Source: Firmicutes bacterium ADurb.Bin193
GTDB taxonomy: Bacteria > Bacillota > Clostridia > Monoglobales > Firm-18
Assembly: GCA_002070105.1 (NCBI GenBank)
Contig: MWCQ01000005.1
Location: 62,001-126,000, forward strand
Reading direction: 5' to 3'
Length of the DNA: 64,000 nt
Under the pieces are notes generated by a model. That model did not search any database, was not told the origin of the DNA, and saw only the letters and a list, made by a program, of their open reading frames with translations. The stretch's first letter is position 1. Each line of letters starts with the position of its first letter. This document shows positions 22,390-48,998 of the stretch, piece by piece. Made by a program: the position numbers and the translations under genes.

Positions 22390-22731
22390 TGGTGGAGGCG
22401 GGGGGAGTCGAACCCCCGTCCGAAAGCACGCCACAAGACTTTCTACGAGTGTAGTTTGTGTTCAACATTCCCTCCGCCCGAAGCACACAAACAAGCTTCG
22501 GGTTTTAGTAGCTTCATTTTTCATGGGCGCGGCAAAGCTTACGCGCCTCACGTTCACCACTGAATGACGCCCTTATCCGGGCTGTGGTACTCCCGGTAAG
22601 AACGGCCGCCTAATTAGGCAGCGTAAGCTAAATTATCGTTAGCGTTTAATTATTTTTTGGGCTTTTATAGCGGCGCCCACCGCTACTCGCTTATCCTGCT
22701 TAAATGCCCCCGTCGAAACCATTGCGCCCCC
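22390..22731 (-). ncRNA. ssrA: Transfer-messenger RNA (tmRNA)
   Basis: tmRNA rescues stalled ribosomes by acting as a tRNA-Ala and then as a mRNA for a degradation tag. The 342-nt gene has a 5' GGGGGCG acceptor strand pairing with CGCCTCC before ACCA at the 3' end, and a T-arm GGGGGTTCGACTCCCCC. The tag frame begins GCT and reads ANDNLAYAA then TAA. Pseudoknot-forming GC-rich segments follow. CCA is encoded. The 5' end lies one base after the smpB stop codon, so the RNA must be cut from a joint transcript by RNase P, or it starts from a promoter inside smpB. Confidence 0.95.
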
Positions 22732-24925: not shown

Positions 24926-25156
24926 TTATTTGATAAAAGCAAGCACAATCGATGTTATAAGGAATATAACCGCGACAACTGTTGTCAGCCTGTTAAGCAT
25001 GGCATCAATCGTCCTGCCCTTGTTTTTACCGAAAAATGTTTCAGCACCGCCCGCAATCGACCCCGAAAGACCGAAGCTTTTACCCGATTGTAAAAGTACT
25101 ATTACTATCAGGATAACAGCAACAAGTATATGAAGTATTGTAACCGCCGTTGACAT
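24926..25156 (-). CDS. secG: Preprotein translocase subunit SecG
   Basis: A 76-residue subunit of the SecYEG export channel. Two hydrophobic helices (about 5-22 and 55-74) flank the characteristic loop 'LLQSGKSFGLSGSIAGGAETFFGKNKGR', seen here in part as 'LSGSIAGGAETFFGK'. Size and layout are standard. It is preceded by copy 3 of the two-hairpin leader described below and followed by its own terminator; rnr, smpB and ssrA come next, as in many Firmicutes. Confidence 0.93.
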   Translation of the reverse strand: MSTAVTILHILVAVILIVIVLLQSGKSFGLSGSIAGGAETFFGKNKGRTIDAMLNRLTTVVAVIFLITSIVLAFIK

Positions 25157-25179: not shown

Positions 25180-25294
25180 AATCGTATACATTAAAACATA
25201 GGTGCAATTCGCCAGTCGAATTGCCTCGCACCGTTTCAATAGATGCAACGGGATAAAACCGAAAGGTTTTATTACCTTGAGCGCATTTATTATA
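25180..25294 (-). ncRNA. Structured leader element, copy 3 (upstream of secG)
   Basis: Minus strand, beginning at TATAAT (25294-25289). Hairpin 1: arms AATAAATGC / GCATCTATT enclose GGTAATAAAACC / GGTTTTATCCC with a 4-base loop. Hairpin 2: GAAAC ... GTTTT enclose GGTGC and GCAATTCG / CGAATTGC, then CACCTATG. It matches copies 1 (36899) and 2 (46715) in plan, with many base differences that keep pairing. The leader reaches to about 25 bases before the secG start. Confidence 0.7.
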
Positions 25295-25317
25295 GCACAT
25301 ATACATATAGAATGCAA
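25289..25317 (-). promoter_or_regulatory. Promoter at the leader element, copy 3
   Basis: TTGCAT (25317-25312), 17-base spacer, TATAAT (25294-25289). The -10 is the first conserved part of the element; the spacer and -35 are not shared with the other copies. Confidence 0.7.
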
Positions 25318-36875: not shown

Positions 36876-36904
36876 TTGAATTATGGAATCAACAATGGTA
36901 TAAT
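36876..36904 (+). promoter_or_regulatory. Promoter at the leader element, copy 1
   Basis: TTGAAT (36876-36881), 17-base spacer, TATAAT (36899-36904). Confidence 0.7.
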
Positions 36905-37010
36905 AAATGCAAAAAGGAAATAAAGCCTTATCGGCTTTATCCCGATGCATTTATTGAATCGGTGTGAAGCAAGCCGATTGGCGGCTTGCATATATGATTT
37001 AATAATCGCA
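36899..37010 (+). ncRNA. Structured leader element, copy 1 (upstream of DUF975 gene)
   Basis: Starts at TATAAT. Hairpin 1: arms AATAAATGCA (36902-36911) / TGCATTTATT (36946-36955) around ATAAAGCC / GGCTTTAT. Hairpin 2: GAATC / GATTT around GCAAGCCG (36969-36976) / CGGCTTGC (36982-36989), followed by TATG. In copy 2 the inner hairpin-1 pair G-C is A-T, a compensatory change. The leader ends about 70 bases before the start codon. Confidence 0.7.
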
Positions 37011-37081: not shown

Positions 37082-37834
37082 ATGTGGAGCAGGCAGGAAC
37101 TTAAAACCCGCGCAAAGGAAGTTTTAAAGGGGTCTTACTGGAAGGCGTTTTTAGTTAGCATACTTATTCTTTTCACAAGCGGAGGCGGCGGAGGCGGCGG
37201 GAACATAAACTTACCCAACAACAGCAATGCTCCCGGAAGTATGTACGGGTATAATGCAGCGAATATATTTGACACAATTCCGTTAAATCTTATAGCTGTA
37301 TTTATCGCAATAATTTTCTTTGCCATACTTATTGGAATCGGTATACGGATTTTTTTAGGTTATCCCGTAGAAGTCGGCGGAAGGAAATATTTTATTCGCG
37401 CGGCTGAGGGGCATGTGAGCATAAACTACCTTTCCCTCGTTTTCAAAAAAGTACATTATCTGAATGTTGTAAAGACAATGTTTTTAAAGGACCTGTATAT
37501 TTTCCTGTGGTTTTTGCTTTTTATTATACCGGGCATTGTAAAGGGCTATGCATACTCGATGGTTCCGTATATTATGGCGGAGAATCCCGGTATGGACTAT
37601 AAGCGCGCCATTGAAATCAGCAACAATATGACATACGGTCATAAATTCAAAATGTGGGTGCTTGACCTTTCGTTTATCGGCTGGTTCCTGCTCGGCTCGC
37701 TTGCTCTTTTTGTGGGAACGGTTTTCGTAATTCCCTATGTGTTTTCCACAAAGGCGGAGCTTTATCTTGTTTTGAAGAAAAATGCTTTGGACAATGGTAT
37801 TTGTCTTAACCAAGAGTTTGTTTACGAAGGATAA
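37082..37834 (+). CDS. DUF975 family integral membrane protein
   Basis: A 250-residue membrane protein. The first 25 residues ('WSRQELKTRAKEVLKGSYWKAF') are the typical amphipathic start of DUF975, followed by about five to six membrane segments; 'YSMVPYIMAENPGMDYKRAIEISNNMTYGHK' (seen in part as 'NPGMDYKRAIEISNNMT') is the family hallmark. A run of seven glycines lies at about residues 35-41. Function unknown. Start at ATG 37082 with GGGGGGCG upstream. It is expressed from the structured-leader promoter (copy 1). Confidence 0.82.
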   Translation: MWSRQELKTRAKEVLKGSYWKAFLVSILILFTSGGGGGGGNINLPNNSNAPGSMYGYNAANIFDTIPLNLIAVFIAIIFFAILIGIGIRIFLGYPVEVGGRKYFIRAAEGHVSINYLSLVFKKVHYLNVVKTMFLKDLYIFLWFLLFIIPGIVKGYAYSMVPYIMAENPGMDYKRAIEISNNMTYGHKFKMWVLDLSFIGWFLLGSLALFVGTVFVIPYVFSTKAELYLVLKKNALDNGICLNQEFVYEG

Positions 37835-45734: not shown

Positions 45735-45811
45735 GCGCTGTTAGCTCAGTTGGATAGAGTGACTGACTACGAATCAGTAGGTCAGAGGTTCGAGTCCTCT
45801 ACAGCGCGCCA
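45735..45811 (+). tRNA. tRNA-Arg (ACG)
   Basis: 77-nt gene. Acceptor GCGCTGT / ACAGCGC, then G and encoded CCA; anticodon stem ACTGA / TCAGT around loop CTACGAA gives anticodon ACG; T-arm with GGTTCGAGTCC. The A34 would be edited to inosine. Confidence 0.97.
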
Positions 45812-46690: not shown

Positions 46691-46720
46691 TTGAAAGAAA
46701 GTGCATATATGGTATATAAT
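46691..46720 (+). promoter_or_regulatory. Promoter at the leader element, copy 2
   Basis: TTGAAA (46691-46696), 18-base spacer, TATAAT (46715-46720). Confidence 0.65.
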
Positions 46721-46822
46721 AAATGCAAACATGGTAATAAAACCTAATCGGTTTTATACCTATGCATTTATTGAATCGGTGTAAAGCAAGCCGATTTCAG
46801 GCTTGCGCCTATGATTCAATAT
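46715..46822 (+). ncRNA. Structured leader element, copy 2 (upstream of secreted protein)
   Basis: Starts at TATAAT. Hairpin 1: AATAAATGCA (46718-46727) / TGCATTTATT (46763-46772) around GGTAATAAAACC / GGTTTTATACC. Hairpin 2: GAATC (46773-46777) / GATTC (46813-46817) around GCAAGCC (46786-46792) / GGCTTGC (46800-46806), then GCCTATG. The start codon of the next gene is about 50 bases further on. Confidence 0.7.
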
Positions 46823-46871: not shown

Positions 46872-48998
46872 ATGAAAAGGTTCACATTATCGGTAATGGT
46901 GCTAATGGCATTTCTCTGCGTTGTTTTGTTAAGTCCTTTTGCACCATCGGAATCGACACCGCTTGTCTCGGCGGCAGCAACATGGAAACCCTTTCCCGGG
47001 CGCCTTGCTTACAGCTGTGACGGAGGCTATCACGATAAAGACGATATTGCTGCTAACCCTTTTCTTCTGTTGCTTCTTTACAAAGCCGGTTTAGCAGACA
47101 AGCTGGTTCACTTCGAGTATGCAAATCACATCTGGCTTTCAGACGCTACACAACTTAATAGTCTTATATCCGCAACAAATGAAGCGGTAACCAGATTTGG
47201 TTTTAACCCGAATATATTCTACAACTGCATGAATGCGAACAAAGACCCCATTTATAACCATCTTAGGGATGAAATTCTTGCTTCTACCGCATCAAATCCT
47301 CTGACCATCTGCGGTGCGGGACCGATGCATACAATCTATCAGGCGCTCTCGCGAGCTAATGCTCAAGACCCGAGCAAGCTTCAGTATGTGACGGTTATTT
47401 CACATTCGCCCAAAACAGGTGATTTGAGCAGTAACAATGAGCACGGCTTGTATGACCATGCTAAGGCGCCCGACCCCACCCATACACATAAAAATCCGAC
47501 GGCTAAGGTATGGGATGATATCGCTGCTGATTTCCCCTCTGTAAAGCTTGTTATCATTCGCGGTCAGAACGGCCCCGGCACTACCGCTCTCGAAAGAAAT
47601 GCTCCTTATGATTTTCGTGTGGCAGATTCTTACAATGCAGAACAATGGATGGAAGATTCCACCGATGACGATATTCGTTGGGTATGGGAAAATATGAATG
47701 CTGTCCACGGCACTTTAAACGATGTGTCCGATGCGGGTATGGTATGGTATTGGATGACCGGCGGCGATGCGTATGGCGATTTCGTTAAGACGAAGGTTGC
47801 ATTAACAAGCGATTATATTCTTGATCTTAATTTTAATTCAGATACCTTATCAAGTCCGCCTTCAGGCTGGGTGGATATTACCGGCGATGTGACGATTGCC
47901 AATGTGCCGAGTGTGTCGTATGTTCCTGCCGTTCCGGATAAGGCAATGGAGAATACTCATTTTAAGGACAAGTGCATAAAGATAAATGACACGACCTCAA
48001 GCAGTTGCACCGCGACTAAAGTATTTGCGGATCAGTCTGCGGATTTTGTGGTGGACTATGATTTTATGGTTTCAACTGCTTCGGCGGATTATGTTGGTAT
48101 AGAAGTTAAAAACAGCACAGGAGATGCTGCGGTAATGGTAAAAACCGTTGGAAGCAATATAAGTTATAAAACCGGCGGATCATGGACACCCATTACAAGT
48201 TACACGCAAAACAAATGGCATCACATCACAATATATGCCAACAAAGGAACAAACAAATGCAGTATAATAGTTGACGGTAAGTTGGAAGTGGATAATTTGG
48301 ATATGGCGACTGTATCTAATCCAATAAACAATATAACATTCAAAACAGGCACTACTTATCAAGGCGTTGCATATTTTGATAATCTTAAAATATTCTCACC
48401 TTCCGCCGCACCAACCCCTACTCCGACACCCTCACCAACCCCAACACCGGCAGGCGACTATCTCATAGATGATAACTTCAATAACCAATCAGCAGGGAGT
48501 ACGCCGACAGGCTGGACGGTTAGCGGAGATGTGAAGGTTGCGAACATTCCGAGTGCTTCTGATAAAAGTATAAAGTTTAACGATACTGATGCAAGCACCT
48601 TAACAGCAGTTAAGGGTTTTGCACAGCAGACGGGCGCAATCACGGTTGAATACGACTTTATGGTGCCTGCAACGGTAGATTTTGCGGGGTTACAGCTTGA
48701 GGACGGAAGCGGGACGACAGCTATAGTACTAAAGACCAGGTACGGACAAATCGCCTATAAAAAATCAGACGATAGTTGGGCTAACCTTCAGGCATACAAT
48801 CCAAACACATGGTATAGCATCAGGATAGAAGCTGATGTCTCAACCGATACATACAGCGTCTATGTAAACGGCGTAGAGAGGGCGAACGGTGTAGCTTTTA
48901 ACAGAGCCGTATCGTCTATAGAGCAGATAAAATTCACAACAGGCAGTTCCTATACCGGTCTAATGTATGTGGACAATGTAAAGGTTTATAAGCCGTAA
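46872..48998 (+). CDS. Large secreted protein: nucleoside-hydrolase-like domain plus two LamG-like domains
   Basis: A 708-residue exported protein. ATG 46872 follows GAGGAGAG; signal peptide about 1-32. Residues about 38-300 resemble the nucleoside-hydrolase fold: 'YSCDGGYHDKDDIAANPF' recalls the D-x-D-x(3)-DD calcium site, although the first Asp is replaced by Cys-Asp order and the family match is weak. Then two LamG/CBM-like beta domains (about 310-515 and 545-708, each ending 'YFDNLKIF' or 'YVDNVKVY') joined by a Thr-Pro linker 'PTPTPTPSPTPTP'. Function unknown; likely binds or acts on a glycan or nucleoside-containing polymer outside the cell. It is bracketed by 79-bp direct repeats. Confidence 0.7.
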   Translation: MKRFTLSVMVLMAFLCVVLLSPFAPSESTPLVSAAATWKPFPGRLAYSCDGGYHDKDDIAANPFLLLLLYKAGLADKLVHFEYANHIWLSDATQLNSLISATNEAVTRFGFNPNIFYNCMNANKDPIYNHLRDEILASTASNPLTICGAGPMHTIYQALSRANAQDPSKLQYVTVISHSPKTGDLSSNNEHGLYDHAKAPDPTHTHKNPTAKVWDDIAADFPSVKLVIIRGQNGPGTTALERNAPYDFRVADSYNAEQWMEDSTDDDIRWVWENMNAVHGTLNDVSDAGMVWYWMTGGDAYGDFVKTKVALTSDYILDLNFNSDTLSSPPSGWVDITGDVTIANVPSVSYVPAVPDKAMENTHFKDKCIKINDTTSSSCTATKVFADQSADFVVDYDFMVSTASADYVGIEVKNSTGDAAVMVKTVGSNISYKTGGSWTPITSYTQNKWHHITIYANKGTNKCSIIVDGKLEVDNLDMATVSNPINNITFKTGTTYQGVAYFDNLKIFSPSAAPTPTPTPSPTPTPAGDYLIDDNFNNQSAGSTPTGWTVSGDVKVANIPSASDKSIKFNDTDASTLTAVKGFAQQTGAITVEYDFMVPATVDFAGLQLEDGSGTTAIVLKTRYGQIAYKKSDDSWANLQAYNPNTWYSIRIEADVSTDTYSVYVNGVERANGVAFNRAVSSIEQIKFTTGSSYTGLMYVDNVKVYKP

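Follow-up and report, generated by a model that had tools for sequence, protein, structure and literature searches.

A two-hairpin repeat at clostridial sigma-A promoters, probably a mobile DNA element with an internal guide

REPs are short palindromes that occur in inverted pairs. The element IS608 inserts exactly 3' of a tetranucleotide that is kept in its left flank, and its internal guides pair with the cleavage and target sites (PMC5934647). IS110 bridge-RNA elements encode a segment that can pair with the target as well as with the donor (PMC11208160). Here we analyse a two-hairpin unit that is present three times in a 64,000-nt stretch of clostridial DNA (the window) and again elsewhere in the same genome and in relatives. 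Based on genome comparison, we consider it probable that the unit, a pair of adjoining hairpins with a total length of about 95-110 nt, is a non-autonomous mobile DNA element inserted at extended -10 boxes and equipped with an internal guide. A literature search returned no description of such an element.

Two covarying hairpins at a shared -10 box

The window holds three copies, with TATAAT at 36899 and 46715 on the plus strand and at 25294 on the minus strand, and each combines TATAATAAATGC, two hairpins and a -35 box 17-18 nt away. In copy 1, on the plus strand, the -35 box of the host promoter (TTGAAT, 36876-36881) is followed after a 17-nt spacer by the left TATAAT (36899-36904), a -10 box common to host promoter and element that is a pre-existing target in relatives. 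Folding and covariation both support hairpin 1 (36903-36955), with outer stem ATAAATGC/GCATTTAT and inner stem ATAAAGCC/GGCTTTAT, and hairpin 2 (36954-37003), whose terminus is the right end TGATTTAAT (36995-37003). The central segment TTATTGAATC (36951-36960) is complementary to the right end and is a putative guide. Downstream lies a gene for a DUF975 membrane protein (37082-37834, plus strand). Copy 2, also on the plus strand, has its -35 box TTGAAA at 46691-46696, an 18-nt spacer and a whole unit (46715-46820) that runs from TATAAT up to the right end TGATTCAAT, upstream of a large protein gene with a sialidase-like CBM domain (46872-48998). Copy 3, on the minus strand, has TTGCAT at 25312-25317, a 17-nt spacer and a unit (25190-25294) from TATAAT (25294-25289) up to TGTTTTAAT, followed by secG (24926-25156). 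The first-pass annotation had located these copies and their -35 boxes correctly, and the covarying pairs it named are found in them. Compared with shuffled sequence, folding gave z scores of -5.4 for copy 1, -6.5 for copy 2 and a moderate -2.6 for copy 3. The window also contains a tmRNA gene (22390-22731, minus strand) and tRNA genes at 45735 and 45944.

The annotation had been unable to assign the unit to a riboswitch class, and we likewise found no Rfam family matching the element at gathering threshold over the window; at a relaxed threshold, copy 1 gave chance-level matches only. Its proposal of a selected two-hairpin structure is borne out by an alignment of 30 matches (28 distinct rows), in which 93.8% of pair cells are paired and 78 are double-changed, against 21 in shuffles and with none of 500 shuffles reaching 78, although relatedness of the units inflates the double-change counts. 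The stems keep 94-95% of their pairs, both in these 30 matches and in a later set of 76 units, and pairing falls to 31-41% when the partner is shifted by one column.

Covariation is seen in every stem, and one of these stems lies between the -10 box and the expected transcription start. In this outer stem of hairpin 1, coordinated changes fall at positions 3-5 after the -10 box, where the pairs in 76 units are A-U in 41 and U-A in 34, C-G in 39 and U-A in 32, and A-U in 58 and G-C in 17. A sigma-A transcript begins about 6-7 nt after the -10, so positions 3-5 should lie outside the RNA of that promoter. The constraint therefore acts at least partly on DNA, or on read-through RNA, and the structure is, as far as these alignments indicate, not only an mRNA structure. 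The overlap between the outer arm of hairpin 1 and the -10 box had been recognised before; we add that this arm lies upstream of the expected start site.

Distribution and empty sites

Our search began with a sequence pattern and went on to a covariance model, the kind of test the annotation had suggested, for which nine copies were used. In the window's 2.63-Mb genome it recovered 13 full copies with E of 1e-13 or better and one degenerate copy, two of these being in tandem, plus one copy of hairpin 1 only. By covariance model the family is present in 5 of the order's 51 genomes, counting that of the window, and it occurs in 20 of 391 sampled genomes of the class, in 8 of the 16 species of one genus and, in a phylum sample of 398 genomes, in the window's genome only. 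Copy number ranges from 0 to 55 per genome (55 in G149, 35 in G196, 23 in G429, 22 in G122 and 17 in G124), many of the comparison genomes being fragmented, with contigs that end inside arrays. G014, from the window's order, shares its two copies with the MAG 'Clostridiales bacterium Hm464_bin68'. IMG/VR viral contigs and plasmid and phage collections gave no copies to the patterns and query applied. The dispersal of copies among unrelated flanks, and the variation in copy number among close species, are the behaviour of a mobile element.

Some copies stand in distinctive surroundings. The hairpin-1-only copy in the window's genome (C4:78201; L202:1702-2846) is seemingly truncated and lies directly before a DNA cytosine methyltransferase gene, which is followed by genes possibly belonging to a restriction system. 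We considered this copy as one end of an autonomous element and rejected it, no matching hairpin 2 being seen; the genes between arrays in G149 and G122, considered in the same role, look like ordinary host genes. On contig C10 of the window's genome, a degenerate unit (L028) directly follows another complete promoter, TTGTCA-17-TATAAT-TGT-TATAATAAATTC. Two loci from different genera (L027 and L050) have similar upstream flanks and different downstream genes, and the yicC-like gene of L027 matches that of a further locus, L048.

Flanks of occupied sites were sought in sister species of a genus with 16 sequenced species. At hslO, G429 has the empty site TTATGTGTTATAATTGG, and G196 reads TTATGTGT-TATAAT, then a unit ending TTATGT, then TATAATTGG. 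At trpF, the G429 promoter TTGCAA...TATGCTATAAT lacks an insert and that of G196 is occupied, with one base being C in the empty site and T in the occupied one. A carboxyltransferase promoter, TTGAAA...ATGATATAAT, carries a unit in G428 and is empty in G423, G429, G196 and G295, and two more G429 copies have empty orthologous sites, at two loci. At aroH and ung the intergenic DNA is too divergent for such a comparison. The empty sites show an intact sigma-A promoter with a single TATAAT where the occupied relative reads TATAAT-element-TATAAT. These alignments are most simply explained if the unit was gained, by exact insertion into a -10 box that was already there; for any one case an exact loss is formally conceivable, but less so at the site that four relatives have empty.

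Clean empty sites in sister species thus indicate that the element moves and that -10 boxes are its precise landing sites. There is good support for both mobility and targeting, from species outside the window's own genus. The annotation had mentioned a DNA-level role in passing, and both the empty sites and the outer-stem covariation upstream of the start favour it. A helix-turn-helix gene at two loci (L139 and L210) has a near-identical promoter flank in two host families, with different unit types at the same -10 box, which suggests independent insertions after gene transfer.

Target choice, borders and arrays

The association with a sigma-A -10 box, a constant feature in the earlier reading, is upheld across the family. 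A -35 box matching at least 4 of 6 positions at 16-18 nt precedes 69% of the 72 leftmost units, compared to 17% of background TATAAT sites, and TG stands before N, the host base directly preceding TATAAT, in 64 of the 72 (12% in the background). Units are always in sense orientation to the promoter. A gene begins within 400 nt downstream of 45 of the 48 scored units, and the genes downstream are unrelated to each other.

The hairpins and promoter in the annotated plan of the unit stand; its right border needed refinement, since the right end of many units is TGNTATAATA again, a direct repeat of the left end. The ends TATAATAA... and ...TGNTATAATA are direct repeats, and terminal inverted repeats are absent. 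Units also form head-to-tail arrays of up to nine, about 94-104 nt apart (in G149 the right ends are 93-95 nt apart, mostly exactly 94). Tandem units share TGNTATAATA, and covariance-model matches overlap by 8 nt at every junction. Among the candidate orphan right ends listed for G149, G122 and G196, most appear to lie at array-unit spacing.

The central segment has the form TTATTGxAN'C. In 70 of 86 insertions N' is the complement of host base N; shuffling N' within genomes gave a mean of 58.9 and a maximum of 69 in 20,000 trials. The N at the right end fits N' in 80 of 86 arrays, and the internal junctions do so in 39 of 39. In 11 arrays the right base fits the guide and the left does not, which would follow if the host supplies the left base and the element supplies the right. 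In three arrays the left and right bases agree with each other and not with the guide; these arrays, together with the C/T difference at trpF, hint that the element may sometimes rewrite the left-flank base. At two loci (L104 and L289), orthologous G196 and G429 promoters are both occupied by different units, and the flanking N differs, each fitting its own unit, a pattern that may likewise reflect occasional rewriting of the left base.

Within arrays, N' is the same in all 91 unit pairs, although just 12 of these pairs have an identical hairpin 1 and 55 an identical stem code, and the nine-unit array of G149 is a mixture of two hairpin-1 types. As N' is shared though the hairpins differ, the arrays are built from different units of one specificity and are not simple duplications. 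The guide also faces the third base of TATAAT with a G-T wobble, and the second base, which sigma flips out in open complexes, often with a mismatch (x is A in 48 of 86 cases).

In the window's whole genome the N-N' match is weak (4 of 7 scored), and the window's right ends TGATTTAAT, TGATTCAAT and TGTTTTAAT have drifted off TATAAT towards better guide pairing. To judge from their sequences, the window copies look like older, possibly inactive insertions.

Mechanism, rival explanations and known systems

In our model the element enters a sigma-A promoter that is already present, directly 3' of its extended -10 box TGNTATAAT, and points the same way as that promoter. The -10 used as target is retained to the left of the unit, leaving -35 and -10 intact, and the element's own terminal TGNTATAAT restores a new target, allowing head-to-tail arrays. 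Mobility, the exact target, orientation, arrays, covariation and dependence on the guide letter all come from the sequence comparisons. The central segment TTATTGxAN'C is predicted to pair with the right end in hairpin 2 and could form equivalent pairs with the left flank, aligned with hairpin 1; most likely it serves as a guide for the cleavage and target sites on single-stranded DNA, in the manner of IS608. A plausible target is the exposed non-template strand of the promoter bubble, and active promoters may be chosen because their TATAAT strand is exposed in the open complex. A circular form, if made, would join the right and left ends of a unit as the junction TGNTATAATAAA.

The mobilising enzyme would be supplied in trans. 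The Y1 transposase family PF01797 is absent from G196 (35 copies, 98% complete), G124, G122, G151, G153 and G356, its presence does not track copy number, and it occurs in genomes that have no copies; no mobilising enzyme or autonomous relative was found in these comparisons. We tentatively raise the possibility that the family is mobile DNA of a new class, a parasite of transcription initiation: a folded single strand of about 100 nt would read the -10 through pairing with its own guide, probably in the open complex, insert with the promoter unbroken, rebuild its target and so stack into arrays, moved by an enzyme family not yet linked to mobility.

The main rival is a site-specific recombinase of tyrosine type, integron- or Xer-like, that integrates the folded strand at an NTATAAT core, the N-N' correspondence then being core identity and not guide pairing. 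The core is identical at both ends and at all array junctions and lies within a hairpin stem, as in folded attachment sites, and occasional rewriting of the left base would fit core exchange; however, no integrase arm sites were recognised, GTTATAA does not match the attC consensus GTTRRRY, and the left base differs from the right in 11 arrays. On balance we think this unlikely. We have greater doubts that the unit derives from a conventional IS200/IS605 element, has no autonomy and is moved by the Y1 transposase of that family. The two hairpins, an insertion point 3' of a short fixed sequence that stays in the left flank, and a guide-like segment pairing with the right end, as in IS608 (PMC5934647), would all suit this, but PF01797 is missing in six copy-bearing genomes and present in copy-free ones, and a single guide placed between the hairpins departs from that family, as do the tandem arrays.

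The annotation had taken the unit primarily for an mRNA leader or regulatory RNA class. A cis-regulatory leader, riboswitch-like or protein-binding, at the start of a set of mRNAs would explain the constant sense orientation, the gene within 400 nt in 45 of 48 scored units and the stable covarying stems. Against this, the family is sporadic, most relatives being without copies, and the same promoters are empty in sister species; the downstream genes are unrelated and form no coherent regulon; arrays reach nine units; the outer stem of hairpin 1 lies upstream of the expected start; and no Rfam class fits. An RNA-leader origin is largely refuted and now very improbable. Retro- or RNA-mediated spread, in which RNA from a captured promoter is copied back into other -10 boxes, could exploit the transcription that intact promoters imply at each occupied site. 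Transcription is, however, expected to start downstream of both the left TATAAT and hairpin 1's 5' arm, so that a unit could be copied into RNA in full only within arrays or through read-through; we give this route hardly any credence.

If a guide-bearing mobile element is indeed at work, it would represent natural guide-encoded DNA insertion of minimal size and single-base precision, with the target code in the element's own sequence and the promoter left undamaged. It would also directly provide housekeeping genes with new structured 5' leaders. For comparative RNA searches, the family is a warning that mobile DNA can pass for repeated, covarying leaders at promoters. The enzyme becomes a concrete target for discovery, as one genus includes both copy-rich (55) and copy-free species.

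Among known systems, the element resembles IS200/IS605 transposons (IS608, ISDra2) and their transposase-less derivatives in its end hairpins, the target kept on the left and the apparent internal-guide logic, and its pairing pattern and N-N' correspondence would be compatible with guide-to-cleavage-site pairing of that type. It differs in its 9-nt extended -10 target, in one central guide seemingly serving both ends, in a right end that equals the target and gives rise to arrays, and in having no matching distribution of Y1 transposase; we do not claim membership of that family. Like the REP/REPIN sequences associated with TnpA-REP, the units are short, non-autonomous, hairpin-forming and intergenic in many copies, but they are direct, asymmetric and promoter-bound, and PF01797, the family expected to detect TnpA-REP, was not found in several copy-rich genomes. 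Classical MITEs share the small non-coding form and the direct repeat at the borders after insertion; here terminal inverted repeats are lacking, the flanking repeat is always TATAAT, and units form head-to-tail arrays.

Integron attC sites are folded single-strand recombination sites in head-to-tail arrays, a likeness that for our element involves predicted folding. GTTATAA is, however, not a GTTRRRY/RYYYAAC core, no cassettes lie between the units, and the sites are many and scattered. As in IS110 bridge-RNA elements, an element segment would pair with both target and donor, but our element is about 100 nt long, has no recombinase gene and no CT core, and is bordered by a TATAAT repeat. With the cis-regulatory RNA families of Rfam it shares covarying hairpins at mRNA starts; it matches none of them, is mobile and lies partly outside the transcript.
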